64,000 nucleotides of DNA from Sorex araneus. Lineage: Eukaryota; Chordata; Mammalia; Eulipotyphla; Soricidae. The notes under the pieces were generated by a model. It worked only from the letters and a program-made list of their open reading frames with translations. It searched no databases and was not told the DNA's origin. This document shows, one piece after another, positions 2,651 through 56,839 of this stretch; position 1 is the first letter of the stretch, and every line of letters starts with the position of its first letter. The translations under genes and the position numbers were made by a program. The stretch covers positions 180,623,949 to 180,687,948 of the forward strand of contig NC_073305.1 in the NCBI RefSeq assembly GCF_027595985.1. Direction: 5' to 3'.

Positions 2651-2654
2651 AAGG

Positions 2655-7440: not shown

Positions 7441-7667
7441 AATATCCATGGCCAGGGAAAACAGGGGTTAGGAAGACTGGTGAATGGCTGCATGGGGCTG
7501 GGGGGTAGGTAAGGTAGAGAAGAGGCCAGTATGACAATAATAGCTGGAAATGTTCATGCTGGACAGAATAGGAGGGTTAAATGTAGCTAAGGGATATTCT
7601 TGAGAACCTTTTAGTATTAATATTGCAAACCACAATGCCCCAAAGGAGAGGGAAAGTGTTTGCCATA

Positions 7668-9116
7668 CTTAAAGAGAGTGCAGCCACGTGGGCTTTCCCA
7701 TTTCTCCGCGCCCGCACCCCCAGAATGACTGACGAAGAGGAGGGAGCTGCTTGGGACACCAGCAGCCCACCAGCAACCTGCAGTATGTGACTTGAGAGTT
7801 TCCGCCAGGTCCCCCATGCGGGGGCCCGGCGTTTCTCTTTTTTTTTTTTAATCTCTCTCTCTTTCCCTCAACTTCTCCTGGGCACAGCACAGCATCTACC
7901 CCACTTCTCTGAGCACAAAATGGAGAGACGCACCCAAATGCGCGGCGCGGCTGGCGGGGGATCGAGGGCGGGGAAGTACCGGTCTCCGCCCACATCGGAC
8001 ACTTAAAGAGAGTGCAGCCACGTGGGCTTTCCCATTTCTCCGCGCCCGCACCCCCAGAATGACTGACGAAGAGGACGGAGCTGCTTGGGACACCAGCAGC
8101 CCACCAGCAACCTGCAGTATGTGACTTGAGAGTTTCCACCAGGTCCCCCGTGCGGAAATCTCTCTCTCTCTCCTTCAACTTTTTCCCTGGACTTTAGACA
8201 GAAACCCAAAACCGCGCGGCCTCTGCCGCGGCCGCGCGACCTAATGTCATCTTAGTATCAGCAATATGTAATGGTTCCTTCTTAATGGGTCGGACTTTTG
8301 TGGGTGATCCTAACAAGAATAGTAAGTATTTTGTTGAAATATTGAAGGCAATCAAAATGGTAGCCATCTCTCTAGACTGAACTAAGCTATATCCCCACGC
8401 CGGCTGAGAAGAAATATCCTTCTTTCTCGGGAAGAAACGTGGCATGGTGTCAAACATAGTGTGATGTCCATTAAGCAAACAGACCTGGTGGCGTGGGAAT
8501 GGGAAATAAGGGGAAAAATTAGGTACATGGACCAGCGGGACGCTGGTGGTATCTCGAGCCGGAGCCGATATCAGTGCAAGACCTTTGGTTCCAGAAACTG
8601 CTTGCAGACACTCTACTAGACTATCAACTAAGCCAGAGCCCCACGCCTGCTGATGACGGGAAATAACCATCCTCTTCGGTTTTTTTCCCTGTGTCAGACA
8701 GCGTGGCGATTACTAAACAGGCGTGAACTCGGTGGCGCGGGGCAAGGGGGAAAAAGAAAAGTTATGTAACAAACAGCAGGACTTAATATCTCTATATTCT
8801 TAGTAATGGAGAACTATCAAATGCCTCATTGGCAATAGGACTGTCTTTTTTTTTGGGGGGGGAAACCCCAGCAACGGTAGTGAGTTGTGTGTTGAAACAT
8901 GGAATGTAATCAAGATAAGTGTAAATGAAGTGAAACTTATCACGTACAAGGGTGGGGACTAGGGAGGTGGGAGGGGGCGGCAGATATACTGGGGGGGTTG
9001 GTGATGGAAGATGGGCACTGGTGAAGCGAAGGGTGTTTGAATATTGTATAACTGACATAATCCTGAGAACTTTGTAACCCTCCACTTGGTGATTCAATAA
9101 AAAAAAAAAAAAGAAA
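7668..9116 (+). mobile_element. Composite retroposon, short copy (1.4 monomers)
   Basis: Same family as the long copy at 21707-29220. It has one complete monomer (7668-8001, 334 bp), a partial second monomer (8002 to about 8150) and the unique non-coding body (about 8151-9095), ending GTGATTCAATAAAA plus poly(A). A perfect 16-bp TSD, GAAAGTGTTTGCCATA, flanks it at 7652-7667 and 9117-9132, inside the 3'UTR of the older L1. The poly(A) tail and long TSD indicate L1-mediated insertion. I do not recognise a named family. No ORF in it resembles a known protein. Confidence 0.93.
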
Positions 9117-9306
9117 GAAAGTGTTTGCCATAGAGGCAGGCAGGGGTTAGGGGTGGGGGTTGATGTGAGGGAACCTGGGGATACTCGTGTAGGGAAATGG
9201 ACTCTGGTGGAGGGATGGGTGATGGAACACTGCATGACTGAAATCCAATCATGAACAACTTTGTAGTGGTCTATCTCACCGTGACACAATAAAAAAAATT
9301 AAAAAG

Positions 9307-21350: not shown

Positions 21351-21706
21351 AATAATGATCCAAAAAGGAAATAAAAGTTATCTAGAAAATAGAGAGTAAC
21401 CGAGAAATTAAAGTATTTTTTAAAAAATTATATGAATTCACATAATTAATACAGATGAATAATATATGAAATAATTCATACCCATTTACCCAGATACTTC
21501 TCCAAATATTTATGTATAAATGTATATAATATTTTTTGTCTAGGCATATTTACAACTCAACACCAAAAAAACTCAGACTGTCAAAATCTCACAACAGAGC
21601 ATTATAATTGTTTTAAATAGTAATATACCCACTTTGGAAAAAGTCCAGTCATAGAAATGCACAGCCTCCAAAGTGTTATAAGATTCAACTTAAATGTATT
21701 GGTATA

Positions 21707-24700
21707 CCCATTTCTCCGCGCCCGCACCCCCAGAATGACTGACGAAGAGGACGGAGCTGCTTGGGACACCGGCAGCCCACCAGCAACCTGCAGTATGTGA
21801 CTTGAGAGTTTCCGCCAGGTCCCCCGAGCGGGGGCCTGGCGTTTCTCTTTTTTTTTTTTTCTTTAATCTATCTCTCTTCCCCTCAACCTCTGGGCACAGC
21901 ACAGCATCTATCCCACTTCCGAGCACAAAATGGAGAGACGCACCCAAGTGCGCGGCGCGGCTGGCGGGGGATCCAGGGCGGGGAAGTACCGGTCTCCGCC
22001 CACATCGGACACTTAAAGAGAGTGCAGCCACGTGGGCTTTCCCATTTCTCCGCGCCCGCACCCCCAGAATGACTGACGAAGAGGACGGAGCTGCTTGGGA
22101 CACCGGCAGCCCACCAGCAACCTGCAGTATGTGACTTGAGAGTTTCCGCCAGGTCCCCCGAGCGGGGGCCTGGCGTTTCTCTTTTTTTTTTTTTTTTCTT
22201 TAATCTATCTCTCTTCCCCTCAACCTCTGGGCACAGCACAGCATCTATCCCACTTCCGAGCACAAAATGGAGAGACGCACCCAAGTGCGCGGCGCGGCTG
22301 GCGGGGGATCCAGGGCGGGGAAGTACCGGTCTCCGCCCACATCGGACACTTAAAGAGAGTGCAGCCACGTGGGCTTTCCCATTTCTCCGCGCCCGCACCC
22401 CCAGAATGACTGACGAAGAGGACGGAGCTGCTGGGGACACCGGCAGCCCACCAGCAACCTGCAGTATGTGACTTGAGAGTTTCCGCCAGGTCCCCCGAGC
22501 GGGGGCCTGGCGTTTCTCTTTTTTTTTTTTTTTTTCTTTAATCTATCTCTCTTCCCCTCAACCTCTGGGCACAGCACAGCATCTATCCCACTTCCGAGCA
22601 CAAAATGGAGAGACGCACCCAAGTGCGCGGCGCGGCTGGCGGGGGATCCAGGGCGGGGAAGTACCGGTCTCCGCCCACATCGGACACTTAAAGAGAGTGC
22701 AGCCACGTGGGCTTTCCCATTTCTCCGCGCCCGCACCCCCAGAATGACTGACGAAGAGGACGGAGCTGCTTGGGACACCGGCAGCCCACCAGCAACCTGC
22801 AGTATGTGACTTGAGAGTTTCCGCCAGGTCCCCCGAGCGGGGGCCTGGCGTTTCTCTTTTTTTTTTTTTTTTTCTTTAATCTATCTCTCTTCCCCTCAAC
22901 CTCTGGGCACAGCACAGCATCTATCCCACTTCCGAGCACAAAATGGAGAGACGCACCCAAGTGCGCGGCGCGGCTGGCGGGGGATCCAGGGCGGGGAAGT
23001 ACCGGTCTCCGCCCACATCGGACACTTAAAGAGAGTGCAGCCACGTGGGCTTTCCCATTTCTCCGCGCCCGCACCCCCAGAATGACTGACGAAGAGGACG
23101 GAGCTGCTTGGGACACCGGCAGCCCACCAGCAACCTGCAGTATGTGACTTGAGAGTTTCCGCCAGGTCCCCCGAGCGGGGGCCTGGCGTTTCTCTTTTTT
23201 TTTTTTTTTTTCTTTAATCTATCTCTCTTCCCCTCAACCTCTGGGCACAGCACAGCATCTATCCCACTTCCGAGCACAAAATGGAGAGACGCACCCAAGT
23301 GCGCGGCGCGGCTGGCGGGGGATCCAGGGCGGGGAAGTACCGGTCTCCGCCCACATCGGACACTTAAAGAGAGTGCAGCCACGTGGGCTTTCCCATTTCT
23401 CCGCGCCCGCACCCCCAGAATGACTGACGAAGAGGACGGAGCTGCTTGGGACACCGGCAGCCCACCAGCAACCTGCAGTATGTGACTTGAGAGTTTCCGC
23501 CAGGTCCCCCGAGCGGGGGCCTGGCGTTTCTCTTTTTTTTTTTTTTCTTTAATCTATCTCTCTTCCCCTCAACCTCTGGGCACAGCACAGCATCTATCCC
23601 ACTTCCGAGCACAAAATGGAGAGACGCACCCAAGTGCGCGGCGCGGCTGGCGGGGGATCCAGGGCGGGGAAGTACCGGTCTCCGCCCACATCGGACACTT
23701 AAAGAGAGTGCAGCCACGTGGGCTTTCCCATTTCTCCGCGCCCGCACCCCCAGAATGACTGACGAAGAGGACGGAGCTGCTTGGGACACCGGCAGCCCAC
23801 CAGCAACCTGCAGTATGTGACTTGAGAGTTTCCGCCAGGTCCCCCGAGCGGGGGCCTGGCGTTTCTCTTTTTTTTTTTTTTTTTCTTTAATCTATCTCTC
23901 TTCCCCTCAACCTCTGGGCACAGCACAGCATCTATCCCACTTCCGAGCACAAAATGGAGAGACGCACCCAAGTGCGCGGCGCGGCTGGCGGGGGATCCAG
24001 GGCGGGGAAGTACCGGTCTCCGCCCACATCGGACACTTAAAGAGAGTGCAGCCACGTGGGCTTTCCCATTTCTCCGCGCCCGCACCCCCAGAATGACTGA
24101 CGAAGAGGACGGAGCTGCTTGGGACACCGGCAGCCCACCAGCAACCTGCAGTATGTGACTTGAGAGTTTCCGCCAGGTCCCCCGAGCGGGGGCCTGGCGT
24201 TTCTCTTTTTTTTTTTTTTTTTCTTTAATCTATCTCTCTTCCCCTCAACCTCTGGGCACAGCACAGCATCTATCCCACTTCCGAGCACAAAATGGAGAGA
24301 CGCACCCAAGTGCGCGGCGCGGCTGGCGGGGGATCCAGGGCGGGGAAGTACCGGTCTCCGCCCACATCGGACACTTAAAGAGAGTGCAGCCACGTGGGCT
24401 TTCCCATTTCTCCGCGCCCGCACCCCCAGAATGACTGACGAAGAGGACGGAGCTGCTTGGGACACCGGCAGCCCACCAGCAACCTGCAGTATGTGACTTG
24501 AGAGTTTCCGCCAGGTCCCCCGAGCGGGGGCCTGGCGTTTCTCTTTTTTTTTTTTTTTTTCTTTAATCTATCTCTCTTCCCCTCAACCTCTGGGCACAGC
24601 ACAGCATCTATCCCACTTCCGAGCACAAAATGGAGAGACGCACCCAAGTGCGCGGCGCGGCTGGCGGGGGATCCAGGGCGGGGAAGTACCGGTCTCCGCC

Positions 24701-27700
24701 CACATCGGACACTTAAAGAGAGTGCAGCCACGTGGGCTTTCCCATTTCTCCGCGCCCGCACCCCCAGAATGACTGACGAAGAGGACGGAGCTGCTTGGGA
24801 CACCGGCAGCCCACCAGCAACCTGCAGTATGTGACTTGAGAGTTTCCGCCAGGTCCCCCGAGCGGGGGCCTGGCGTTTCTCTTTTTTTTTTTTTTTTTCT
24901 TTAATCTATCTCTCTTCCCCTCAACCTCTGGGCACAGCACAGCATCTATCCCACTTCCGAGCACAAAATGGAGAGACGCACCCAAGTGCGCGGCGCGGCT
25001 GGCGGGGGATCCAGGGCGGGGAAGTACCGGTCTCCGCCCACATCGGACACTTAAAGAGAGTGCAGCCACGTGGGCTTTCCCATTTCTCCGCGCCCGCACC
25101 CCCAGAATGACTGACGAAGAGGACGGAGCTGCTTGGGACACCGGCAGCCCACCAGCAACCTGCAGTATGTGACTTGAGAGTTTCCGCCAGGTCCCCCGAG
25201 CGGGGGCCTGGCGTTTCTCTTTTTTTTTTTTTTTTTCTTTAATCTATCTCTCTTCCCCTCAACCTCTGGGCACAGCACAGCATCTATCCCACTTCCGAGC
25301 ACAAAATGGAGAGACGCACCCAAGTGCGCGGCGCGGCTGGCGGGGGATCCAGGGCGGGGAAGTACCGGTCTCCGCCCACATCGGACACTTAAAGAGAGTG
25401 CAGCCACGTGGGCTTTCCCATTTCTCCGCGCCCGCACCCCCAGAATGACTGACGAAGAGGACGGAGCTGCTTGGGACACCGGCAGCCCACCAGCAACCTG
25501 CAGTATGTGACTTGAGAGTTTCCGCCAGGTCCCCCGAGCGGGGGCCTGGCGTTTCTCTTTTTTTTTTTTTTTTTCTTTAATCTATCTCTCTTCCCCTCAA
25601 CCTCTGGGCACAGCACAGCATCTATCCCACTTCCGAGCACAAAATGGAGAGACGCACCCAAGTGCGCGGCGCGGCTGGCGGGGGATCCAGGGCGGGGAAG
25701 TACCGGTCTCCGCCCACATCGGACACTTAAAGAGAGTGCAGCCACGTGGGCTTTCCCATTTCTCCGCGCCCGCACCCCCAGAATGACTGACGAAGAGGAC
25801 GGAGCTGCTTGGGACACCGGCAGCCCACCAGCAACCTGCAGTATGTGACTTGAGAGTTTCCGCCAGGTCCCCCGAGCGGGGGCCTGGCGTTTCTCTTTTT
25901 TTTTTTTTTTTTCTTTAATCTATCTCTCTTCCCCTCAACCTCTGGGCACAGCACAGCATCTATCCCACTTCCGAGCACAAAATGGAGAGACGCACCCAAG
26001 TGCGCGGCGCGGCTGGCGGGGGATCCAGGGCGGGGAAGTACCGGTCTCCGCCCACATCGGACACTTAAAGAGAGTGCAGCCACGTGGGCTTTCCCATTTC
26101 TCCGCGCCCGCACCCCCAGAATGACTGACGAAGAGGACGGAGCTGCTTGGGACACCGGCAGCCCACCAGCAACCTGCAGTATGTGACTTGAGAGTTTCCG
26201 CCAGGTCCCCCGAGCGGGGGCCTGGCGTTTCTCTTTTTTTTTTTTTTTTCTTTAATCTATCTCTCTTCCCCTCAACCTCTGGGCACAGCACAGCATCTAT
26301 CCCACTTCCGAGCACAAAATGGAGAGACGCACCCAAGTGCGCGGCGCGGCTGGCGGGGGATCCAGGGCGGGGAAGTACCGGTCTCCGCCCACATCGGACA
26401 CTTAAAGAGAGTGCAGCCACGTGGGCTTTCCCATTTCTCCGCGCCCGCACCCCCAGAATGACTGACGAAGAGGACGGAGCTGCTTGGGACACCGGCAGCC
26501 CACCAGCAACCTGCAGTATGTGACTTGAGAGTTTCCGCCAGGTCCCCCGAGCGGGGGCCTGGCGTTTCTCTTTTTTTTTTTTTTTTTCTTTAATCTATCT
26601 CTCTTCCCCTCAACCTCTGGGCACAGCACAGCATCTATCCCACTTCCGAGCACAAAATGGAGAGACGCACCCAAGTGCGCGGCGCGGCTGGCGGGGGATC
26701 CAGGGCGGGGAAGTACCGGTCTCCGCCCACATCGGACACTTAAAGAGAGTGCAGCCACGTGGGCTTTCCCATTTCTCCGCGCCCGCACCCCCAGAATGAC
26801 TGACGAAGAGGACGGAGCTGCTTGGGACACCGGCAGCCCACCAGCAACCTGCAGTATGTGACTTGAGAGTTTCCGCCAGGTCCCCCGAGCGGGGGCCTGG
26901 CGTTTCTCTTTTTTTTTTTTTTTTTCTTTAATCTATCTCTCTTCCCCTCAACCTCTGGGCACAGCACAGCATCTATCCCACTTCCGAGCACAAAATGGAG
27001 AGACGCACCCAAGTGCGCGGCGCGGCTGGCGGGGGATCCAGGGCGGGGAAGTACCGGTCTCCGCCCACATCGGACACTTAAAGAGAGTGCAGCCACGTGG
27101 GCTTTCCCATTTCTCCGCGCCCGCACCCCCAGAATGACTGACGAAGAGGACGGAGCTGCTTGGGACACCGGCAGCCCACCAGCAACCTGCAGTATGTGAC
27201 TTGAGAGTTTCCGCCAGGTCCCCCGAGCGGGGGCCTGGCGTTTCTCTTTTTTTTTTTTTTTTTCTTTAATCTATCTCTCTTCCCCTCAACCTCTGGGCAC
27301 AGCACAGCATCTATCCCACTTCCGAGCACAAAATGGAGAGACGCACCCAAGTGCGCGGCGCGGCTGGCGGGGGATCCAGGGCGGGGAAGTACCGGTCTCC
27401 GCCCACATCGGACACTTAAAGAGAATGCAGCCACGTGGGCTTTCCCATTTCTCCGCGCCCGCACCCCCAGAATGACTGACGAAGAGGACGGAGCTGCTTG
27501 GGACACCGGCAGCCCACCAGCAACCTGCAGTATGTGACTTGAGAGTTTCCGCCAGGTCCCCCGAGCGGGGGCCTGGCGTTTCTCTTTTTTTTTTTTTTTT
27601 TCTTTAATCTATCTCTCTTCCCCTCAACCTCTGGGCACAGCACAGCATCTATCCCACTTCCGAGCACAAAATGGAGAGACGCACCCAAGTGCGCGGCGCG

Positions 27701-28238
27701 GCTGGCGGGGGATCCAGGGCGGGGAAGTACCGGTCTCCGCCCACATCGGACACTTAAAGAGAGTGCAGCCACGTGGGCTTTCCCATTTCTCCGCGCCCGC
27801 ACCCCCAGAATGACTGACGAAGAGGACGGAGCTGCTTGGGACACCGGCAGCCCACCAGCAACCTGCAGTATGTGACTTGAGAGTTTCCGCCAGGTCCCCC
27901 GAGCGGGGGCCTGGCGTTTCTCTTTTTTTTTTTTTTTTTCTTTAATCTATCTCTCTTCCCCTCAACCTCTGGGCACAGCACAGCATCTATCCCACTTCCG
28001 AGCACAAAATGGAGAGACGCACCCAAGTGCGCGGCGCGGCTGGCGGGGGATCCAGGGCGGGGAAGTACCGGTCTCCGCCCACATCGGACACTTAAAGAGA
28101 GTGCAGCCACGTGGGCTTTCCCATTTCTCCGCGCCCGCACCCCCAGAATGACTGACGAAGAGGACGGAGCTGCTTGGGACACCGGCAGCCCACCAGCAAC
28201 CTGCAGTATGTGACTTGAGAGTTTCCGCCAGGTCCCCC
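21707..28238 (+). repeat. Tandem array of 338-bp GC-rich monomers (19.3 units)
   Basis: Counting from each CTTAAAGAGAGTGCAGCC, there is a 305-bp partial unit (21707-22011), 18 complete units (22012-28090; lengths 335-338 bp) and a 148-bp partial unit (28091-28238). Length differences come from the T-run following GGCGTTTCTC. Base changes among units are very few: CTGGGGACAC for CTTGGGACAC at about 22430, and GAGAATGCAG for GAGAGTGCAG at 27421. Each unit holds CACGTG (E-box), GGGCGGGG (Sp1-type GC box), a YY1-like AAAATGGAG, and an inverted repeat around CCCCCGAGCGGGGG. These motifs suggest promoter units; activity is inferred. Confidence 0.95.
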
Positions 28239-29195
28239 GTGCGGAAATCTCTCTCTCTCTCCTTCAACTTTCTCCCTGGACTTTAGACAGAAACCCAAAA
28301 CCGCGCGGCCGCTGCCGCGGCCGCGCGACTTAATGCTTAATGTCATCTTAGTATCAGCAGTATGTAATGGTTCCTTCTTAATGGGTCGGACTTTTGTGGG
28401 TGATCCTAACAAGAATAGTAAGTATTTTGTTGAAATATTGAAGGCAATCAAAATGGTAGCCATCTCTCTAGACTGAACTAAGCTATATCCCCACGCTGGC
28501 TGAGAAGAAATATCCTTCTTTCTCGGGAAGAAACGTGGCGTGGTGTCAAACATAGTGTGATGTCCATTAAGCAAACAGACCTGGTGGCGTGGGAATGGGA
28601 AATAAGGGGAAAAATTAGGTACATGGACCAGCGGGACGCTGGTGGTATCTCGAGCCGGAGCCGATATCAGCGCAAGAGCTTTGGTTCCAGAAACTGCTTC
28701 CAGACACTCTACTAGACTATCAACTAAGCCAGAGCCCCACGCCGGCTGATGACGGGAAATAACCATCCTCTTTGGTTTTTTTTCCCTTTGTCAGACAGCG
28801 TGGCGATTACTAAACAGGCGTGAACTCGGTGGCGCGGGGCAAGGGGGAAAAAGAAAAGTTATGTAACAAACAGCAGGACTTAATATCTCTATATGCTTAG
28901 TAATGGAGAATTATCAAATGCCTCATTGGCAATAGGACTGTCTTTTTCTTTTTGGGGGGAAACCCCAGCAACGGTAGTGAGTTGTGTGTTGAAACATGGA
29001 ATGTAATCGAGATAAGCGCAAATGAAGTGAAACCTATCACGTATAAGGGTGGGGACTAGGGAGGTGGGAGGGGGTGGCAGATAGACTGGGGGGGTTGGGA
29101 ATGTAAGATGGGCACTGGTGAAGGAAGGGGTATTTGAATATTGTATAACTGACATAATCCTGAGAACTTTGTAACCCTCCACTTGGTGATTCAAT
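28239..29195 (+). other. Unique body of the composite retroposon
   Basis: About 950 bp, non-coding as far as I can tell. It begins TGCGGAAATCTCTCTC, has a GC-rich segment CCGCGCGGCCGCTGCCGCGG (28301-28320), and contains a diverged internal duplication with a period of about 245 bp: the CTAGACTGAACTAAG...CCCCACGCTGGC block at 28463-28500 recurs at 28707-28746, and the GGTGGCGTGGG block at 28582 recurs at about 28827. The same body is at 8151-9095 (about 95% similar by eye) and, more diverged and inverted, in 55680-56400. Confidence 0.85.
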
Positions 29196-29235
29196 AAAAA
29201 AAAAAAAAAAAAAAAAAAAAAAATGTATTGGTATA

Positions 29236-32200
29236 ATAAATAAACAAAATAAAACACATAATTTAAAGGTTATAAATGGATGATAAAATGTGGGCAGCAG
29301 AGTAGAAAGGACAATACATAATCAGAAATGTTGGGGAAAATTTAAAAATAAAAACAAAAGTAGCACAGTATTTCAAAGGGTTTGGGTGATTTTTTTATTT
29401 TGCTCCTTCCCTTCAGATCCTAGATTTCCTTCAATGCATTCATACTAAATTGAGTATTTTAGATGTGTATATGCCTAAATAATGAAATATGAGTTGATAT
29501 GGTTTGGTAGCAAAAAGGTAATTTTTGTTGAATAATTTTATTCATAATTTAAAAACTGCCAGAAGCACTGCTTAAACTTTTAATGAAAAGATGATTAGTC
29601 AAAGAAAATGTTGCTCATGGCTATGTTAGAACAAAAATAAGAAGTCTCTTCTATATAATTTTCACTTTGGGAAAAAAAAAGAAACCTTGATTAGAAATTT
29701 ACAATCACTTGTTACATCACTTCATTGCATTTCTGTCACCTGATACTTTTCTGCCTCTCTGTATAGAAGAAGCAAGAAACTAATAGTAAAAAGGTCAAAA
29801 AGCTCAAAAGCTAGAACGGTTTTATTTGAAACTTGTGGCAAAGACAGAGAACATACCGTTTTGTAATATTTCAAAAATTGACAAAATCCGTTGCTTGAAG
29901 GAAATCCCCAAACAGTCTCACACTCTATGAACTTATTCTCAGCAAGTCAATACTGACAAAAACCATGGCTATTAGAGAAAGTGCTCAATTATGCCTTTGA
30001 CAGTTTTCTCTTAAACTTGTATTATCATTACAACTCAGTTGATTTTTCACTACTTTTAAAGTAGAAATTTGTTGTCTTTTGATAGAATGACCAAGATCTT
30101 CTGTCTTCTTCATTTGCAATTCATTCTTTTTAATTATATCCATTTTCCAAGATACTCAAGAGTCCTCTCATCCTTCACTGGAGTGAAACTGCTCCCTTTC
30201 ATTCCATTGTATTTTTAACCCTACCTCCTCTCCCATTGTAACACTTTCTGTCTATCTTCACTAGATGATAATTTTCTCTAGAGTCATGTCTGACAGTTGC
30301 ATACTATGACTGGTCCCTTATAGGTCTTTATTAAATCAATCTAATCTTAAAACATAAATGTCCTTTTGTCCCCTGATTATAGCCCAACAAAATGATGAGA
30401 ACTCACCTAAGTGCATGATTGGAGTTAACATGTTCTTTATACATTTCTTATAAATTATAATTTATTACTATATTCAATCCACTCAACATTGTATACATTA
30501 TAATATATAAGAGTAGCCTAAGTTTATACTGGACCATAAAACTTCAAAGAGTTTATGTGATCCGACCAAGTTTATTGTGATGTGATTATGAAACTGTATA
30601 CTGTCCTCCAACCCTAGGCTTTCCATCCACTTCTAAATCCCATGGGTAAAATTTGGCCAATGGACATTTTGAATACACCAGTGAAATGCTTAAAGTATAT
30701 TTTCTAATAGAAATTGTGAGAATGTGCTTATTCTTTTATTTATTTGAACTACATTGTGTTTGTTTGTATGTGTGAAGCTATTAAGATAAATAATAAAATA
30801 TCACAAATTAAAAACCAATCTGTCTTGAAATTAAATTTTACTCATTTAACAAGTACAAATGGCATCTTCAAAAATAGATACACAAATATGGTGAATATTT
30901 CTAAGGCAGTTGCTCTTTGGTATAACTGAAAGGCATGGTCTCCATGCAAGTCTACAGAGAATAACAATTTTTTAAAAATATCCAGTAGTCTTTATATTTT
31001 ATAAGCCTATTTTTAGGAGATCTGGTTGATATCTGCTAACTGCTAATCAGAATATATTGGTTCAACATATTTCTCTACACATATAAATAATAAATAGCTG
31101 GTGAGTGAAGTATTTACCACATTACTTAGTTTAGAATTGTTCAATGATCTCCAAATAAGAACTAGTTTAACTTAAGGTTACAGTTACATTTTTTGGTCCA
31201 TTTATGTTGAATGAAAGATAGTAAAGAAAATAATTTACTCTCATGTTACACTGAGAAGATAGCAGAATCAGTACCAGAATCAAGACATTAGAAGGAGAAG
31301 GAAGAAAAGGGGAAGGAAGGTGGTTGGGACAGGAGAGATAAAGAGAGGGAAGATGATTATTCAGGTTTAATTATATCACAGCTATTAGCATTTTACCTGA
31401 GAACAATATGTGACTCCATAGCTGACAAGTTTCAGCTCTAAGTTATTTAAGAAATGTCTGATGGAACAAATTTTGTGCAGTTAAAAAGTCTGAAACTCTA
31501 ATGCAGTTTATTACAATATTTTCAACCTTTTCTGGAAATCAAAAGCCATTTTTTTAAACCAGGGAGTTGAATTGTGTAGCATAAAAGAAAAATATAATGC
31601 AATATTTTTAGAAGCAATGTCAAAATCACATTACTAATGATATTTAATCTCCTAAATCAGCAGTCATTCAGTACTTTAATGAAATAATGAGTGATTTTGA
31701 AAGGTTTTTTCATAGTCTGAAAAGAAAAAGTCTAATTTTATTGGAAACTGTATTACAATTTATATTTAAAATATGTTCAGTTGAGCATGCTATTTAATTT
31801 TTCTTAGGAAAAATACAGACTTTAATATCAAATTAACATCTAAGAATTTAGTATACTTTAATTGATACTTAGTGGTGTTAAATACGAAGTCCTCCATATA
31901 CATTCAAAATGTAAATTATAATCTTAAATAAAGGCATGATTTGCTAGGGGAGAAAACAATGCCTAACAGAAGTTACAAGGAGGCAGATAATAAAAGGTGG
32001 AACTTTGGGTTGATTAGAGCTTGACTAACAAATGATTCTCATATAAAAGTTGCTCTAAATCACTGACAAGCTTAGAACTGGATAAATTGTAACAGAAAGT
32101 TATGGATGGAAGATTTTCTCAAATTTTTGGTCACCTCCACTTCCACTAACTTATCATTCTCTACCAAGACCAGTGTGCAATAAATTTGAAGTACATAAAT

Positions 32201-32380
32201 CCAAGTTTAGTCATTGGACCAATGACTAAATGTTTTTAAGTTGGATAACATGGGACATACAACTTTGCCCTTCTTTACCTCAATGTTCTTCATAAAATGG
32301 ACCTAGTATAACCTCCAAATGAACTTCATAACATGGACCTGATCAAACCTCAAAAGAGCACTGCAGATATATGATCATCT
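29236..32380. other. Unique AT-rich sequence
   Basis: Three kilobases with no gene, SINE or LINE that I recognise. Confidence 0.4.
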
Positions 32381-32393
32381 TACATTTCAGATG

Positions 32394-32652
32394 GGCTGGA
32401 GCCATAGCACATAGCACAGGTAGGGTGTTTGCCTTGCATGCGGATGACCCGGGTTCAATTCCTCTGCCCTCTCTGAGAGCCCGGCGAGCTACCAAGAGTA
32501 TCTTGCCCGCACAGAAGAGCCTGGCAAGCTACCCGTGGCGTATTCGGTATGCCCAAAACAGTAACAACAAAGTGTCGTAGTGGAGGTATTACTGGTGCCC
32601 GCTCGAACAAATCAATGAGCAATGGGATGACAGTGATACAGTGATACAGTGA
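32394..32652 (+). mobile_element. SINE A, full length
   Basis: Head GGCTGGAGCCATAGCACATAGC, RTE-derived end and a tail of three GTGATACA units. It is flanked by the perfect 13-bp TSD TACATTTCAGATG (32381-32393 and 32653-32665). Confidence 0.94.
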
Positions 32653-32665
32653 TACATTTCAGATG

Positions 32666-33405
32666 ACTCTGTATCACCAAATATGGACCTTCAAGGTATC
32701 AAGTCTTTCAAAGTGTATTATAATGATCTGGCAGATAAGGTGCAGTCAAATAAAGACTTCCTTTATGGATATGTAAATGAAGAGAACAGGGTGGAACATG
32801 CAGAGCTTCTTCTATTACATAGACACTTTTTTCATCACGTGTTTGTAGAGTTGGCCTCCAACTTTATGAAGCTTCCTAAGTCTTCGATCTTTTGTAGCAC
32901 CATTTTTCATGTAGATATCCTTATATGACTTTGTTGATGAGAAGAAACATTAGGGTAATAATAATATGTATCTTATTTACAAATAAATTACTTCAATCAA
33001 AGCTCACTGAGTTAGCAGTTACAGAGAAAGGTACTCTAAAAGTTTTGTCCAGAGACCCCAGGTTACTTGTAAAGAATGTATCAGTACCCCAGCTAGCTAA
33101 CAGAAAAAATTATTTTTGTTTCTTTAAATGCCCTAAGTATTTTTAATTCTCTACCCATTTTCATTATGATTTATGGATAAAATCAGTCATCCTGGTTTTT
33201 TTCTTAGCAGTTTGATATTGCTAATATGTTGGAAAAATCAGTTAATCAGTGCAAAGACCCATTATTAATTTTTAGCCAACTCTAACTCAAGCATGTAATA
33301 AATGTGACTTGCTTCAATACTTTCACATAAGAATATATTTATGACAAACTTCTCTGACACTGCGACTCTGGACCTTAACTCACCTGAATTTCACAATAGC
33401 ACAGT
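32666..33405. other. Unique sequence
   Basis: Two adjoining plus-strand open frames (81 and 73 codons, 32683-33146) show no family match; I do not call a gene. Confidence 0.35.
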
Positions 33406-33920
33406 TGTCAGGGTCCTGGCCCGTCGACCCCGGCAAACTGGAATATGATCCCCCGAAGTCTCTGGACTTGCTCCTTATGGGAGAGGGAGTGGGGAGGGGA
33501 GAAGCCTCTGCCCTGGCCCTCTGCTCAACGCGGGTTTCCTGCCACCTCCACAGCGGAGAAAGAAACCGAGAAAGAATGCTGCAGAGTCAGGAGAGTCTGG
33601 TGGTCAAGCAGTCTCCGTTTATTGGCCTTTACACAGAGGTATTTATACAACGTTTCAGGGTGGGATTCTCACTCAAGGCATGTAGGGCACGTTCATCCCC
33701 TCGGGCTCTTACAGATATCAGCTAATGGTTCGCATATCCTGCTTAGGGCTGGGTTATCAGCATGGGTAGGTGGTCACAGTCACACCCCTCACCCTCAATC
33801 AAAGTGCCTAGTGTGGGTTGTGCCAGAGCGAGCCCCTGGGTGTTTGTATATAGGGCTGGCTCTTGCTTCAGGGTCAGGGGATTTGGTCAAAGTCTCAGGC
33901 TAGCCGTTGAGACCCCAACA
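33406..33920 (-). mobile_element. Solo LTR, minus strand
   Basis: On the minus strand the 515-bp block begins TGTTGGGGTC and ends GGACCCTGACA (TG...CA). A TATAAATA box sits at 33647-33640 and AATAAA at 33623-33618, about 17 nt downstream, the same tight spacing as in the LTR at 37917-38505. Flanks CACAGT and CCCAAT (33400-33405, 33921-33926) may be an eroded 6-bp TSD with two changes. No viral genes adjoin it. Confidence 0.75.
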
Positions 33921-34115
33921 CCCAATTATTAAGGAACAGAAGGTATTAATAGGGGGACAACTCAATCACTTGACCCCTAAATATCAGAAAGATAAGGACA
34001 GAAAGCAAAAGAAATTGATGATGCTGGCAAAAAGAAGTGAGCAAGAAGTAATCAGGCAAATAGTCACGGGGCAAGGGTCTTTGAAATAAAATACATAGAA
34101 ATTGGGTCTATGTTG

Positions 34116-34481
34116 CTTCATGAGCAGAGGGGAGAAGGCAGATGGAAATAGAGAAGGGATCACTAAGAAAATGATGGCTGGAGGAACCAGTTGGGATGGG
34201 AGATGTGTGCCGAAAGTAGATGATGGACCAAACACGATGGCCTCTCAGTGTCTGTGTTGCAAGCCATAATGCCCAAAATGAGAGTGAGAGTGTGGGGAAT
34301 ATTGTCTGCCTTAGAGGCAGGGGGAGGGTGGGAAAGGGGGGATATACCCGGGATATTGGTGGTGGGGAATGTGCACTGGTGGAGGGATGGATGTTTGATC
34401 ATTGTGAGATTGTAACCCAAACATGAAAGCTTGTGACTATCTCACGGTGATTCAATAAAATTTTTTAAAAAATTAAAAAAA
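34116..34481 (+). mobile_element. 5'-truncated L1 (3'UTR only)
   Basis: A 366-bp fragment of L1 3'UTR with GCAGGGGGAGGGTGGGAAAGG and GGTGATTCAATAAAATTTTTT at the end. The 19-bp TSD AGAAATTGGGTCTATGTTG at 34097-34115 and 34482-34500 is perfect, so the insertion is comparatively young. Confidence 0.94.
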
Positions 34482-34500
34482 AGAAATTGGGTCTATGTTG

Positions 34501-35785
34501 AGACTTCTTGAGATTCCTGTTTTGAGATTTCATATGAAATACATTCTTAACATATATGTGCACAATAATTTGGATGTTCTGAAATTAATTGGGAATTCTA
34601 AAGACTTTTGTGGTTTCTGGTTAATTCTGGATAATTCAGAAAATTGTATTTAAGAATATATTAAATCTCCTTGTCAATTGTGTTATAAAATGACTTTTAA
34701 TTGTGAACATCTATAGTCTATTGTCATTTATAGAACTGCTGTAATACCAAGAAGTCTGTGGGAAAAAATATGGGAATGATACTCCAGATTCCATATATGT
34801 TGTAGAACTTAACATAAAATTACAGTGCTTTGGTAAAAATGCAACACAAAAATTTTAGGAGATCGATACTTTCCACTTGTCACTGAATGGACTACTCAGA
34901 ATCAACATAATTTGATCTACCAAAACCTGGTAGATTGTAACATTCTTGGTATATTCTTATTGTAAAAACGAATGGAAACATTCACTTTTCTCTCTTCCTG
35001 ATACCTTAAGTATGTTTTTTTAGTGCTTCCATGAAAATGTTTTGATATAAACACAGGAACACAGACAATGCTGTGACTTTTTTATAGATAAATTTGAAAT
35101 CAGTTATCGTTCTGAACTTTTGTACAGAATGTTAGAGGAAGTGCTATTTTAGAATTTAAGATTAACCTCAACTGAGAGGAATAGTTTAATCCCTTATTTA
35201 AAGGGTTCCAGCCTCCCAGTAGGATGAAAAAAATAGTTCCCTGAATACTGAGGAACCTCAACTATTGATCCCCCAAACACAAATCCAACAGGTGGATTCT
35301 GATGGTAATGTTTTCTTATAAAACACTGAGTCTTTGTCATATTAAGCCTAAATACTTAACTTAAGCTTTAGTTGCCCTGAGAATGGCCCTAAATTTCTAG
35401 CACCATGTTCCACCAAGGGTCCCAGAAGATCTTGGAGCAGGTTGTCATGTTTCAACACAGAGGGCTTAAGGGCCCATAAGTAATTTGACTATAGTCGGCC
35501 AAGCGTGCTATTATGAGACAGGCTCAGATCTAATGGGAAAACAATCATATTAGAAGCACTCTCTGGGGTTAGGAAAAGCTCAAACAAACTATCTGAGGCC
35601 TGTGGTTTGGAAAATATGACAATATGCTTCCTGGGTACTATGTACTAAAAAGAACTTCAGATTCCTGTCTAGATAGCACTACTCAGTGGAGGCTGATGCC
35701 TAAGGAAAAAACAAAGTGACATGACTTCTGCACCCAGAGACACTATTTAAGCTCAATCTAAATTTATAACTTAAAGAAATCTGTG
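34501..35785. other. Unique sequence
   Basis: No gene or repeat recognised. Confidence 0.35.
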
Positions 35786-36044
35786 TAATTATCTGTTCTT
35801 ACTGTGCTTATGAATAATAACTGGCGACACTTATTAGAAGCAAGCTTGCTCTGTTACTATAAGCCTTTAGGAGATTAGCACTAAGTAACTTCTCCATGTC
35901 TCCATTGTGAGACTTGTTGGTACTGTTTTGCAATGGAGACATTACTTAGTGCTAATCTCCTAAAGGCTTATAGTAACAGAATAAGCTTGCTTCTAATAGG
36001 TGTCGCCAGTTCTTATTCATAAGCACAGTAAGAACAGATAATTA
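35786..36044. repeat. Large inverted repeat, 103-bp arms, SINE-like spacer
   Basis: Left arm 35786-35888 and right arm 35942-36044 are inverted copies with no indels and about four mismatches (about 96% identity). The 53-bp spacer reads TGTCTCCATTGTGAGACTTG and GGTACTGTTTTG, which is minus-strand SINE A body. An inverted copy of GTCTCCATTG lies at the spacer's other end. Could form a long hairpin or cruciform. Confidence 0.92.
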
Positions 36045-37916
36045 AAGGTAAAGTACTAAAGGTAAAGAAAATGCTACATTTCAGTGCATGTCTTTTGATG
36101 GAAATCAGATTCTGTTTTTAGTCTTTATTATTTTTAATTTTTTTCTTATAAACTGGAATGAATACCAAATTTTTCTGTGATTTTTGGTGCACATGTTTTC
36201 AGTTGTTTATTTTCCTAGTTAATTTGCACTGATTAACAATTGGGATAGTCTTCACCATGAAAAGTGGAGATTAAGAAGTTGATATAAACTGCAGATTCCA
36301 CTAGTGATGGTGAGGTTTTCTTGAATGCCTGAGGATACCATAGATTTCCTTCTTTAGAGAAGGAAAACATGTCATCTGAGTACTTTAATACAGATGAGAT
36401 ATTTTCCAGAGTTGCAGTTTATTTTAGTTTTAACCTTTTTCTCTTTCACCAAAGATTTAGACACAATTCCTTACATGGACTGATCTATGCTTAGGACTAT
36501 GAGTGTCCCTATGAAGAAAATGGACAAAACAACCTCTGAATTATGGAATACCTTCAGAAGTTTCAAGGACAAGACTATTAAGAAACACAATATTTGCCAC
36601 CTCAAAATATGTCTTAGATAAATGCTTATATTCATCAGAGGGGTTCTGAAGTTAGAAAATAGTTTAAATTTGAAGGCCACTCAACACACCAGATCAGTTT
36701 TTTTTATTTTTTATTCTACTCTTCTTCCATGATGATCTCATTTATAAAATGAACAACCAACATTGGGGACTAAAAAAAAAGCACAAAAGTGAGATTTGTT
36801 ACTCATAACTGTGTCACTATATTAGAGCTCCCAAGAAAAGGAATAAAAAATGATTTCATTAGGAATCAATATTTACCAAAAGCCCCAACTTCTATAGAAA
36901 TGGAAGGAAGAACAGATAGTATGTATTGAAACTGACTCAAATAAATTAGAAACTTCAACAAGGAAACATGTTCTTGTCTTACTGTTCTCTACTGCCCCCA
37001 GACCTAAAGATTAGAATAAGCTTGTCATTTTGTTCCTAGTTTGCTTAAGTTAGCAGAGAATGTTGAGGAATATCAGGGAACCAGACCACATGGAGATTTT
37101 ATTGTTAATTCAGATGCTTACCGGTTCCCAATCTATCCTTTCTTCTCTGTTCCTTTTCTCTATAAAACCCCTTCTTGTGAGCATGAAGAGAAGACAGTTG
37201 ATTTGAGGACATGAATCCATCGTTCTTTGACCTGCCAGCATGCTGCCAATGAAGCTTTCCCTTGACCCATCACCTTTCCTCATTTGACTTGCCATGAAAC
37301 AGGTGTGGGACAATTACATTATTTTTTTCAGTTACATTATTTATATAAAAAAGTAAAATGATAATTCAAGAAATATGGTTGCAGTAATTGTTTAAATTTG
37401 TAGTATTGACATGCAAAGTTACTGGGCACCACCAGACAAAACTGATTCTCTACCATTCTCCTTATGGCATGTGGCTTTATGTAATGGAAGTATTGAGTAA
37501 GTTGCCAGCTGGGACTGAATGGGAAGTCACAGAGCAATAAGAGGTAGCCACTATCACCCTCAAAAAGACCCAGAACCAACTGGATAGAAAAGAGGGGCTT
37601 TCTTAGAAATAAAATAACTTAAGTTTGGAAGTACATGTACAGCAGAGTGGAGAACAGCTTCAGAGAGAGGGAAAGAGTGTCTGGTTTTATGTCCAGTAGA
37701 GATAGAGCAATGTAATAGCTATAAATATTCTAGTAAAAAGTCTAGCAGTCTCCACACCTGTCCTGTGTCATATTAAAGAACCCACAGGACAGCTCCTGAC
37801 CCTAATATCACAAGCTCAGCTGAGTTGAAAAGAAATTCCAAAGAAGGGTTATTGAGGCTCTTGAACAAAAGTCAAGAACAGAGATCAGATATTCCCTTTT
37901 ATATCACATACCTCAT
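36045..37916. other. Unique AT-rich sequence
   Basis: Nothing recognised. Confidence 0.35.
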
Positions 37917-38505
37917 TGTTGGGGACTGCTCAGGACCCTGAACAAAAGAGGACCCCGAAACCTTTACCCTGGACAAACCAGAAAATTCCATTACCAGCTT
38001 TGCATGACCTGAGGCAAAGGTGCCCTTGTGACAAAGGAAATAGCCAAACTCAAGAAGGTAAAAGTAGCCCAGGGCAGTTAACTAAGAGACACCATAAAGC
38101 CCTAAAGTAGAGTGCCTTCCTCTACACTAATAGCCTTGTGCATTCCTCCTGCCAGATGCTCCTGCCAGATAAACCCTTGCCTTCCTCTCCCCACTATTTC
38201 TCAATCTACTCTTGAAGAATGTTGTAAGCCCACCAAAATACGCCCCGAACCTTTCCTTATTTGGTCTGAGAAGACACTTCCCTGATGATTGACAACTTAT
38301 GTACCAAACCCCTGCTAAGAAAAGTATAAAACCAGCATGGCTGTTAATAAAGCTGCTCTTGATCGGCATGTGTCGTCTTGGGCCCTCTGTTTACTAACCT
38401 CACTAGTCTTATTTCAGGTCGGGACCCTCACAGAATCCACCCAATTAGGAGCGCTTTCCACTGTTGTCTCTCCGCGGGCCGGAGAGATCTCCGGGGGAAC
38501 GCGCA
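37917..38505 (+). mobile_element. Solo LTR with perfect 6-bp TSD
   Basis: A 589-bp block begins TGTTGGGGAC and ends GGAACGCGCA, flanked by the perfect 6-bp repeat CCTCAT (37911-37916 and 38506-38511). TATAAAA is at 38325-38331 and AATAAA at 38346-38351. The TGTTGGGG start and the TATA/AATAAA spacing are shared with the LTR at 33406-33920. A 6-bp TSD fits class II endogenous retroviruses. It is solo: no primer-binding site or viral gene follows. Confidence 0.88.
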
Positions 38506-38554
38506 CCTCATTAACACTTTTTTATTATGATCGCTATTTGTGTTTCATCCAAAT

Positions 38555-38700
38555 GTGTTCAGGACTCACTCCTGGCTCTGTCCCCAGGGTTCACCCCTAG
38601 AGGGACTTAGGGATCCTTATAGGGTACAGGGATTGAACAAAGGTTGACTATGTGCAAGGCAAGTGCTCTACCTGCATGTCTTCTGCCCTATGTGCTTCTT
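38555..38700 (-). mobile_element. SINE B
   Basis: TTCAGGACTCACTCCTGGCTC, GTACAGGGATTGAACAAAGG, GTGCAAGGCAAGTGCTCTACC in reverse family order. Confidence 0.7.
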
Positions 38701-39869
38701 TAAAATAAGTGTTAAGTGATATGTCAAACTCTAGGTTGATCTCTATTTACCCTCAGTCCTTTAAAGGTGTTGTGTAATTGTCTTCAAGTCGCATGTGCTA
38801 TGGTTGCAAAAGTCATTTGTTAATTTAACCAAATTATCCCTTTGCAAAGAAATCTTCATCCTGATAATTGTAGGATGCTATTTAATAAATTGGGGTGTGT
38901 GGTGTATTTGTGTGTGTGTGTTTGTGCGTGCATGTACACATATGCGTGCATTCTAGGCACTGTTCTAAGCATTTTGTAAGTATCAATTCTTGCATGTATC
39001 TATAAATTCTCATAAAAATTCTATGGCAGACACTCTTATTATCTCGATCATTAGATAAGTGAATGAGCTAAAGAAAAATTACTCCACTACTCACTAAGTC
39101 ATTCATAGACTGGGCGTGAATGCAAGTACTCTGACTCCAGAGTCCTGCAGCTAACCTTTTGAGACCTTGTATTTAGGTGTACCTTGTATTTTTGAGGGAA
39201 GTGACTCCCTAGCAGAGTTAAGGACCTGGGGACACTTCCTATGACTGTCAAAGCAACGGTCAGGTCTGATGGTTTGGTGCTCAGGTTCACACACTCAGGA
39301 ACCAACAGGACTATTTGCAGTGGTGTTGGGCAGGGGACAGCCTGGGGGTGGGGGTGGGGAGGTGGGGGGAGCAATTCTGGGTGGAGTGGGGCCGGGGGCA
39401 GAGGGGCAGAGGAAAGGGGAGAGGGTAGATACCAGGGCCTTGCATAAACAAGGCCTGTGTTCCGACTTTTGAACTATCTCTTCAACTTCGAAAATGTGTT
39501 TGTTTTAAAATTCAGAAGCCATTTCAAATGCCTTCTCTACAAGAATAAAGTACATAAGAACATAACAATATGTATTAATGGTAAAAAAATGAAACATTGT
39601 ATGATGTTAAGTGCTATCTTGTTTGCATTTAGGTCATTTGCATTTTACCTGTCAGCCTCGGTTTTGTTCATATTTTGACAATTATTTGTTTCCAACAAAT
39701 GAAACATTTTTCTCTTAAAGATGAGTGTTCAGTATTTGTGCATATTTATATATAGCAGTAAATATCTATTTATAATATGTTTGAATATTTCATTTTATTT
39801 AATGATGATAACTGGAGAGTCCTACAAAGTATCATAAATTTAAATTTGTATATTTAAGCTAGAAATGGA
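38701..39869. other. Unique sequence
   Basis: A GT-rich low-complexity stretch at about 38890-38945 and a G-rich tract at 39340-39420; no gene. Confidence 0.4.
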
Positions 39870-40022
39870 GGGCTGAGGAACAATAAGGGGTTAAGGCACT
39901 TGCCTAGCATTTGGCTGACCCCAGTTCCATCCCCATCCCAGAACTTACAGGTGATTGGTTCCCCAAGCACAGCCACGAGTGATCCCAGAGCACCACTGTG
40001 TGACCTCAAATTCGTCACCTAA
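39870..40022 (+). mobile_element. SINE B, degenerate
   Basis: GGGCTGAGGAACAATAAGGGG, GGCTGACCCCAGTTCCATCC, CCCAAGCACAGCCACGAGTG in order. Confidence 0.6.
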
Positions 40023-40364
40023 ATAAATATTTACAAATATATATTTTTAAAATTATAAATTCCCTCCAAATTTCACCAAACTGACAGCCCAGTAGGAACA
40101 CACTGAATTAGATGGGAGAGTAGCTTAGGATATACCACCTAAGGTCAATAAACAACAACAAAATAACATAGAAGGATTAACTAGTAACATAGAGCTAACT
40201 AACTCCTCAGATTTACTTAATGGTTTAATGACACCAGGGTGAGATACAACATTTTCACAATTTTCTTTTACTGAAGTTGTTATCTTTTCAATAACTCCAT
40301 TATCCATTTACTTGCAACAAGCAATATGAAATAAATTGTTTTGTACCTGCTAAGGCAGCAGGCT

Positions 40365-40500
40365 TAGGGGATAGGTGAGAAATTGGGAACAGTGGTGGAA
40401 AAAAGGTAATGCTGATGGTGGGACTGGTTTGGAATATTGAATGCCCATAGTAATTGGACTATGAACAACTTTGTAAACCATGGTGTTAAATAAAGTAAAA
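40365..40500 (+). mobile_element. L1 3'UTR remnant
   Basis: GGGATAGGTGAGAAATTGGG, GATGGTGGGACTGGT, ACTATGAACAACTTTGTAAACC and TTAAATAAAG match the 3' end of the old L1 around 9190-9290. Confidence 0.6.
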
Positions 40501-40650
40501 GAAGCAATGGGAAAACTAGAAATAAACTTTCATCACCTGAAGGAGTGAATTAAGTAACTTCTGTAGTGTCATAATTTCAAAAGTCCATTCAACAGATAAC
40601 ATTTGATTGTCATTAACAGGATATAATTCAGTGAGTTTTCTCCTAACTGT

Positions 40651-40960
40651 ATTACTGTCATCCTGTTGCTCATCATTTGCTCGAGTAAGTGCCAGTAATG
40701 TCTTCATTTGTCCCTGTTGCGTGCTAGTGTAGCCTGATGGTGTATTAGGGGCTCTTTGAGGGTCAGGGGAATGAGGACTGTTGTTATTACTGTTTTGGGC
40801 ATATCGAGTATGCCACGGGTAGCTTGCCAGGCTCTGCTGTGTGGGTGAGAAACTCTCGGTTGTTTGCCAGTCTCTTACAGAGGGACAGAAACTTTTGGGG
40901 CAGCCTCTAATCACCTTTACAGGTGTTCCCAGTCTAACGAATATAAGCTTTTGCTCGACT
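40651..40960 (-). mobile_element. RTE internal-deletion derivative without a tRNA head
   Basis: On the minus strand it carries GGAACACCTGTAAAGGTGAT, which matches the RTE 5' region at about 57555-57580 and is absent from tRNA-headed SINE A copies. It then has the SINE A body, the long extra segment (CCCCTGACCCTCAAAGAGCC, GGCTACACTAGCACGC) and the RTE 3' end. Confidence 0.8.
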
Positions 40961-40989
40961 GGCATGTTCTAACGATCTGCACACTGACA

Positions 40990-41283
40990 GATACGTACCT
41001 GCCTGCATCTCTTGGCAGCACCTGGGACATCTGCGGTCTCAGTTGATCTCCTTGAGGTTGATGGAGTGCACGGGGAGGTTGTTGAGCAGCTGGCAAAGCA
41101 GGACCCTATCACGGAATTTCTGTGTCAGGTTGAACACCTGTGCCGAGACCCAGGTCACCTGGTGGTTGACTCACAGCACCACACAGTGGATGAGCCACTG
41201 CATGCACTCCCGCCAAGGTGCTATATCAAAAGACGCAGCAACTCTGCCTGGCTGGGACAGATGGCAACCCTGCGGTCACCGCT
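40990..41283 (-). pseudogene. VAV3: VAV-family exon 1 fragment (closest to VAV3)
   Basis: Minus-strand translation from about 41223 gives WRECMQWLIHC, then [26 protein letters not shown] and [14 protein letters not shown], which I recognise as the N-terminus of the VAV guanine-nucleotide exchange factors (calponin-homology domain), closest to VAV3. Two in-frame stops interrupt it (in the loop after HC..VL and after LKEIN). Similarity stops after RPQMSQ, and the next bases are GTGCTG, a plausible splice donor; so the fragment looks unspliced, exon 1 with flanking intron, and not a normal processed pseudogene. The assignment rests on memory of the family. Confidence 0.65.
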
Positions 41284-41388
41284 GTGGTCGCTTCAGCAGC
41301 ACATATACTAAAATTGGAACTGTATAGAGAAGATTAGCATGACCCCTGTGCAAGGAGGACACACAAATTTGTGAAGCGTTCCATATTT
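41284..41388 (+). pseudogene. RNU6: U6 snRNA pseudogene
   Basis: Starts GTGGTCGCTTCAGCAGCACA and contains ATACTAAAATTGGAAC, AGAGAAGATTAGCATGACCC and GTGAAGCGTTCCATATTT: the whole 107-nt U6 spliceosomal RNA with roughly nine substitutions. Changes include the conserved CAGCACATAT-preceding CGG (here CAG) and CGCAAGGATGACACGCAAAT (here TGCAAGGAGGACACACAAAT). No U6-type upstream promoter elements are seen, since VAV-like sequence adjoins its 5' end, so it is unlikely to be expressed. Confidence 0.95.
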
Positions 41389-41642
41389 CTCCTAACAGTG
41401 ATTAAAAATGTTCACTAAGCAATCAGATTTATTTTTTTCAAGAGGTATCATTAGTTGAGAATATAATGGGATCATTAAAATATTTATGTTATATCTAAGT
41501 GATGAATCCTTTATAAGTTTCTTAAGCAACCAATATTTTGAGAAATAATATATAAACATCTAATTTTTATTACAGATGAAATATTTTATCAATACCTAAC
41601 TTTTATTAGAAATGGAATATCACTTATATCACTTTTCATGCC

Positions 41643-42525
41643 ATTGACCTTCGATTTGCTTTGGTGGGCACCAGTAACGTCTCCATTCATCCCTGTTGCG
41701 TGCTACTATAGCCCAATGGCATCTACTCACTCCAGGAACACGAAGAGTCTCAGACTGCTCATTCAAGCTTTTGACGAAGAAGTCTGACGATCTCATAGGT
41801 GGATGGCCACGCAGTCTTTTGACGTCCCATGGAATCCAGTCGGTAACAGCTCTAGTCCAGTGGTCATCTATAAATCACATTATGTGTCTGGCCCATCTGA
41901 TTTTTGACACTTTGGCAAACAAGACAGTGTCCCTGATTCTTGATTGTCAAAGGAGGTCAGAACTCCCAATTCCTTCTCTCACTTGAATGAAGGACGGTCA
42001 GGCAAAACCATTAGTTGAATATGATGTGGTCAATTTCATTGTGGAACTGTCCACAGGGAGACTCCCATGTCCAATGTTTAGATTTGGCCTTCTGGAACTG
42101 TGAGTTATTATGGATGGTCTTGGTTGACATGATAAACTCAAGCAGTCTCTCACCCTGTTCATTCCATTTTAGGCCATGGGTCTCAATATCGAGTTCTTTG
42201 GGCAACCTTCTTGGTTCTATCTTGGCATTAAAATCACCGACAATGATCTTGTAGAAGGTGTGGTCTTCTTCATAGAACTTCTCCAGTTCCATGTAGAACT
42301 TCTCAATTTTTTCTTCATTGTAGTTGGATGTTGGTGCATAGACCATGAAGATAGAAACTGCCAGCAGGGAGCCACATCTATTCAAGTGTAATTACCCGAT
42401 TTGGGTTGCTAGGAAGTAGAATGAATCAATGCTCATGGCCAAGTTTGTGTTGACAAGGACACCGACACCACTGACACTTCTATTGTCACATGTTCCAAGG
42501 AACAGTTCTTTCCCCATGTCGAAAC
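41643..42525 (-). mobile_element. RTE LINE with internal deletion
   Basis: Minus strand. The 42384-42011 part codes FMVYAPTSNYNEEKIEKFY, KIIVGDFNAKI and HNEIDHIIFN, the endonuclease of an RTE-clade LINE (GDFNAK and the DH catalytic region visible). At about 42000 it jumps directly to the ORF's C-terminal part (DWIPWDVKRL, RWSDFF-like, then the ATGGAGACGTTACTGG end at about 41680). The reverse transcriptase is missing. The 5' side ends in a TATC/TATA microsatellite at 42525. Confidence 0.88.
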
Positions 42526-43516: not shown

Positions 43517-43530
43517 AAAGATGAGTAGAG

Positions 43531-44909: not shown

Positions 44910-44951
44910 GACAAGGTGGAGCCACATAAAAACAACAAATACCACAGAAAT

Positions 44952-55662: not shown

Positions 55663-55679
55663 TTACACAGAAATTTTTT

Positions 55680-56007: not shown

Positions 56008-56062
<55 letters not shown>

Positions 56063-56824: not shown

Positions 56825-56839
56825 ACACAGAAATTTTTT

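Follow-up and report, generated by a model that had tools for sequence, protein, structure and literature searches.

Why does a mobile element without genes carry 19 nearly identical GC-rich repeats at its 5′ end, and how did so long an array arise? The question is raised by W1, an element at positions 21707-29220 (plus strand) of a 64,000-nucleotide stretch of the Sorex araneus genome (NC_073305.1, positions 180,623,949 to 180,687,948), hereafter the window. We consider it likely that W1 belongs to a family of L1-derived retroposons that have no open reading frame (ORF), carry promoter monomers, and are copied in trans by L1, and that its array has regrown. Two relatives in the window are called W2 (7668-9116) and W3 (55680-56824), and L-numbers denote genomic loci that we read.

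A gene-less element between target-site duplications

The 5′ part of W1 is a tandem array of 19 whole monomers of 334-338 bp and a 125-bp partial unit (21707-28244), which Tandem Repeats Finder reports over the same interval with a period of 338, 19.4 copies, and 99% matches. It is followed by a body of 951 bp (28245-29195), homologous to the 3′ untranslated region (3′UTR) of an L1, and by a poly(A) of 25 residues (29196-29220). Copies of a 15-bp target-site duplication, AAATGTATTGGTATA, lie on either side (21692-21706 and 29221-29235) and are identical over all 15 bp. The initial annotation had placed array, body, and poly(A) between perfect duplications of this length, and the repeat analysis, the duplications, and the A25 bear it out. 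Its proposal that such a non-autonomous element was inserted by target-primed reverse transcription is likewise supported. In base composition, the array (GC 0.588, CpG observed/expected 0.76) stands apart from window positions 30000-42000 (0.379 and 0.23). The body has degenerate internal repeats, pairing its positions 83-210 with 633-769 and 220-393 with 463-635 at 63-64%. Close to the body start is a GC-rich palindrome (28302-28327), adjoined by a 7-bp insertion (28329-28335) that is private to W1 among 22 aligned copies.

We found no coding region in the W1 body, where sense frames read from stop to stop reach at most 85 amino acids. None of five body or junction frames rose above the Pfam cut-off; one, an antisense frame, came close with 19.7 bits where 20.3 were required. 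We therefore rejected a coding element and agree with the initial annotation that there is no assignable ORF. W1 thus has no protein of its own, as befits an L1-dependent non-autonomous retroposon, and it lacks the ORF1 and ORF2 that an autonomous L1 holds between its 5′UTR and 3′UTR. A 7SL- or tRNA-derived short interspersed element (SINE) was also rejected, because an Rfam scan of 21600-29300 gave zero matches at E up to 1 and ARAGORN, run with the bacterial code, found no tRNA in the window.

A family with a constant junction

We searched the assembly from which the window comes (2,405,902,106 bases in 65 contigs). The exact monomer-body junction occurs 461 times genome-wide and an exact monomer anchor 1122 times, while the reversed-pattern controls each gave 0. 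These counts led us to reject a chance repeat, and the recurrence of one exact junction at 461 places led us to reject a satellite unrelated to a transposon. With the W1 body as query there were 4392 candidates, and the 40 that were scored (W1 included) were 98-100% identical. We read the best 20 of the 39 listed matches other than W1 (L009-L028; L001-L008 are W1 and seven of these, counted once only), a sample biased to young copies because it was chosen in this way. Five further loci, numbers 1, 21, 41, 61, and 81 of 100 junctions listed among the 461 (L029-L033), have bodies 93-98.5% identical to that of W1.

Monomer sequence stands directly upstream of the body in all 20 W1-like loci and in all five further ones. 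The number of whole monomers among the 20 is none in two loci, one in nine (four of them spliced), two in two, three in two, four in two, and five, six, and seven in one locus each. Duplications are present in 18 of the 20, those of L017, L022, and L028 being A-rich and less sure, and are clear in four of L029-L033; in the window they flank W1, W2, and W3 alike. From the duplication script we used the rows for W1, W2, W3, L009, and L010. Target-site duplications combined with poly(A) are what an L1-dependent non-autonomous retroposon leaves behind.

The copies also share their point of origin. In W1, a TATA-like TTAAA (22350-22354, plus strand) lies 28 bp upstream of 22378, where the next monomer starts, and 25 of 27 copies begin at a monomer boundary, 28 bp 3′ of such a TTAAA. 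This start falls at monomer position 1-5 in W1, in 20/20 of L009-L028, and in four of L029-L033, usually in or beside CCCATTT. One or two additional G residues precede the 5′ end in five of the 20 (L012, L013, L019, L023, and L028). An added 5′ G is what copying of capped RNA would give, and these residues fit copied caps, as expected. Judging from this anatomy, each monomer is predicted to act as an RNA polymerase II promoter. The 5′ ends of the elements at L009, L011, L020, L026, and L027 carry an extra T (ATTTTCTCC) that the internal boundaries lack.

Passage through RNA has left a second mark. Four of the 20 loci, each with a single monomer (L010, L012, L014, and L016), lack exactly one stretch of it, and their four junctions read identically. 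The removed stretch is a GT-AG intron that includes a long run of pyrimidines; the one in W1 monomer 2 extends from GTATGT through this run to GCACAG (22127-22236, plus strand) and measures 110 bp, against 108 bp in L013. When L012 was tested against L013, a single breakpoint was possible, CCTGCA|GTATGTGA ... GGGCACAG|CACAGCAT. Window matches to both intron flanks of monomer 2 repeat in other W1 monomers, and the copies in the window are themselves unspliced. Exactly a GT-AG intron is thus missing from four of the 25 loci, which means that an RNA intermediate was copied. The four may stem from one splicing event or several; a CT-repeat indel sets L010 apart from L012, L014, and L016.

The body is related to an L1 3′UTR

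The window holds an L1 with both ORFs open (43531-49311, plus strand; ORF1 43947-44909, ORF2 44916-48770), flanked by a 14-bp duplication, AAAGATGAGTAGAG, that we read by eye (43517-43530 and 49312-49325). By eye it also appears to have a short 3′ transduction, with a second A-run after ~65 bp of other sequence. Its ORF1, used as a genome query, gave 99-100% in 40/40 scored matches of 5298 candidates. This young L1 matches the W1 body over ~100 bp only, at 66%, and its 3′UTR is different.

Another L1 family does have body-type sequence. A piece in L023 (6321-6935, minus strand) encodes an ORF2 C-terminus 72% identical to residues 1239-1284 of the window's ORF2p; after the ORF2 stop come a 3′UTR with two body-homologous stretches and a poly(A), the entire piece lying between copies of AAAGATATTCCATG, a duplication read by eye. 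Body-type sequence is thus contiguous with ORF2 elsewhere, as descent of the body from an L1 would have it. The "L1-like end" of the initial annotation was an understatement, since body-type sequence makes up a 3′UTR located behind an L1 ORF2 at other places. Used as a genome query, the L023 ORF2-3′UTR piece drew 5689 candidates; all 40 that were scored, its own place among them, covered 610 or more of the 620 bases with an identity of 97% or higher. Five copies of this family, which we call L1-B, share 98.7-99.2% identity over 729-980 bp (L034, L035, and L055-L057), indicating recent activity. All five are 5′-truncated, and L056 and L057 have an inverted piece.

Older relatives show that similar bodies have carried other 5′ ends. 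W2 (plus strand) consists of one whole monomer, a partial one, and 30 bp more, then a body 95.8% identical to that of W1 and an A-rich tail; it is nested in an old L1 between copies of GAAAGTGTTTGCCATA (7652-7667 and 9117-9132). In W3 (minus strand) the 5′ part is built from another monomer, of 320 bp, present as a whole unit and a partial one; at E 0.01 this monomer did not match the young one. The body of W3 is 75-76% like that of W1, in two pieces, and the duplication around this element is AAAAAATTTCTGTGT (56825-56839 and 55665-55679). Neither W2 nor W3 figures in the initial annotation of W1. Ten of the 20 loci are flanked by body-like fragments, some of them part of L1s, as in L023. L028 contains an older copy whose 5′ part resembles that of W3 at 67-68% identity, and L026 contains an older ORF-less copy whose 5′ end is of a third type (GGCGCCATCTTG), lying by eye between copies of AGAGAAGGTAAAGAAG. 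The L026 copy is at about 2640-3190 on the minus strand. The young monomer, the W3/L028 type, and the L026 type make at least three different 5′ ends on related bodies. W1 is 72% identical to the L1 copy in L023, 73% to W3, and 71% to the L026 copy; with identities so nearly equal, the ORFs may have been lost once or several times.

Which way the sequence passed between L1 and retroposon has to be weighed. We infer that an L1 lost its ORFs, rather than that an L1 gained the body. The reverse, an independent retroposon whose body was later taken over by L1-B as its 3′UTR, would sit well with the age of the ORF-less body lineage (W3, L026, and L028) and with the different 3′UTR of the window's young L1. 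Yet the 3′ end of the body also resembles those of L1s with other 3′UTRs, within 900 bp in 11 of 13 ORF2 ends (L023 among the 13; L012 is without this 3′ end, and window position 7369 shows only the nested W2). Moreover, the likeness of W3, L038, and L051 to L1-B seems by eye to extend to near the ORF2 stop. We regard such a takeover as quite improbable.

A related concern is that the monomers are simply the 5′UTR of an autonomous L1 family and the copies its internal deletions. Monomeric 5′UTRs exist in mouse and some other L1s (PMC9022269), and body-type sequence is indeed the 3′UTR of an L1 family. From the first 100 of the 1122 anchors as listed, we took every locus that had no listed exact junction, 19 in all (L036-L054; two further junction-less loci among the 100 are known body copies and were set aside) and read 451 bp from the monomer anchor onward. 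The body follows in 18 of the 19: directly after the monomer in 13, and in the other five only behind another, diverged piece, with the stretch read reaching just the opening 31-33 bp of the body. L1 was found downstream of the monomer within this distance at 0/19 places. The L1 ORFs downstream that the initial annotation had named as fatal to its reading were therefore not encountered within 451 bp, and the separation of array from body that it had also named was seen once, at L041. There the monomer is cut at position 320 and continues into sequence without the body or any other match. The 461 copies with one exact junction, as expected of a family in its own right, and the window's young L1, with a different 3′UTR and a 5′UTR that gave no match to the monomer, further argue against internal deletion. 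This case is tempered by the five L1-B copies, all of which lack the 5′ part. On balance, this explanation is improbable.

Probable growth of the array in place

The initial annotation held that about 19 monomers were inserted in one event, which our results do not support. Two variants, T216C and G270C (model columns), occur together in 19/19 W1 monomers and in the whole monomers of neither W2 nor any of 14 other loci. Mean divergence is 0.07% between monomers within the W1 array and 0.99% between copies, W2 included (calculated on whole monomers, which W1, W2, and 14 loci supply; L019, L021, and the spliced four were left out). A 64-mer containing both variants has 19 exact matches in the 2.4 Gb searched, all of them in the W1 array; the search covers exact matches only. 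Since the double variant matches nowhere else, the simplest and most likely reading is that the array expanded in place after insertion.

Insertion of all 19 at once, from an amplified and homogenized source or by slippage of the reverse transcriptase, nevertheless deserves attention. The duplications enclose the whole of W1, and no test result directly separates growth before insertion from growth after it. The W1 body has zero private substitutions in 1.07 kb, only the 7-bp insertion, and its monomers differ little, as in a young insertion. W1 is therefore young, and a source missing from the assembly could have supplied 19 units ready-made, which counts against growth in place. Set against this, exact matches to the double variant of the 19 monomers are confined to W1, and the 20 other young copies carry only 0-7 whole units. 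Private variants common to every monomer of an array are seen at other loci too (L018 7/7, L027 4/4, and L009 3/3). Taken together, we consider insertion at once unlikely and favor growth in place.

A proposed cycle of loss and regrowth

The W1 family is presumably moved in trans by L1 proteins, given its duplications and poly(A) and the existence of young L1s, including the one in the window whose ORFs are open. In the cycle that we propose, RNA would start at a monomer boundary, cross the remaining monomers and the L1-type 3′UTR, be polyadenylated and sometimes spliced, and then be copied in trans. Because the promoter would lie upstream of its own start, a daughter should fall short of its source by one monomer or more. 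Copies that do not retain even one whole monomer (L019, L021, and L032) should then be silent, and tandem duplication in place would restore an array, allowing a copy to be a source again. Behind this cycle may stand a long-lived, ORF-less L1 parasite lineage that switches promoters and whose sources rebuild their arrays in place, with W1 as a regrown stage; this wider picture is plausible, and we offer it tentatively.

Several observations weigh against a trans-copied, L1-derived family of this kind. No duplication was found at L011 or L027, and that of L030 is weak. L029 starts at monomer position 79, and the start of W2 lies 30 bp farther upstream than is usual. Splicing was seen in 0/5 of L029-L033, and L041 has a monomer without the body. 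The W1 body is only 76-79% identical to the L1-B 3′UTR, in two pieces only, so the direct parent was not found and the two lineages parted long ago.

If the proposal is true, a gutted L1 could rebuild the promoter that each jump should cost it, and, SINEs and SVA aside, ends of the L1 type could be enough for an element to succeed in trans in this sort of genome. It would also offer a natural test of how tandem promoters survive, pitting loss at the transcription start against the gain of units in place. This ORF-less L1 shell has hundreds of young copies, its spliced copies are a clean marker of RNA passage, and the length of the W1 array is measurable in populations.

Comparison with known systems

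Such an element was not found in a search of open-licence literature at the level of titles and the openings of abstracts, Dfam and Repbase aside, and a catalogued consensus may exist. The available part of a placental L1 survey (PMC1764860) does not contain the word "Sorex".

The initial annotation likened W1 to hominoid SVA, and the likeness of layout stands: like SVA/LAVA, W1 is non-autonomous, with a tandem GC-rich part 5′ of a unique part, a poly(A), and duplications. The analogy goes no further than layout. SVA is built of CCCTCT hexamers, an Alu-like region, short variable-number tandem repeat units, and a SINE-R part. In W1 the repeats are promoter-like whole units that form the 5′ end, and the body is of the L1 3′UTR type. 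With a 338-bp monomer as its 5′ end and no Rfam match, W1 was rejected as a member of SVA. HAL1 (half-L1) elements are likewise L1-derived and non-autonomous, and they retain ORF1, whereas no ORF was found in W1. Short elements derived from BovB, such as Bov-A, are also LINEs reduced to their ends; they differ in belonging to the RTE clade rather than to L1 and in having no tandem promoter array.

Two further comparisons concern human and mouse L1s. Spliced human L1 copies known as SpIREs arise by splicing inside the 5′ promoter region (PMC5860796). Similarly, the W1 family includes copies of RNA spliced in a promoter-like 5′ region; its intron, however, lies within a repeated monomer, and the element is ORF-less. 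Mouse L1s (Tf, Gf, and A) have tandem promoter monomers in variable number and have undergone repeated 5′UTR replacement, with arrays of more than 10 monomers at seven loci (PMC9022269). W1 and its relatives resemble them in having promoter-like tandem monomers of varying number and in the replacement of 5′ ends. By contrast, W1 is without ORF1 and ORF2 and has a 338-bp monomer that contains an intron, and in mouse, too, an array of 19 units would be uncommon.

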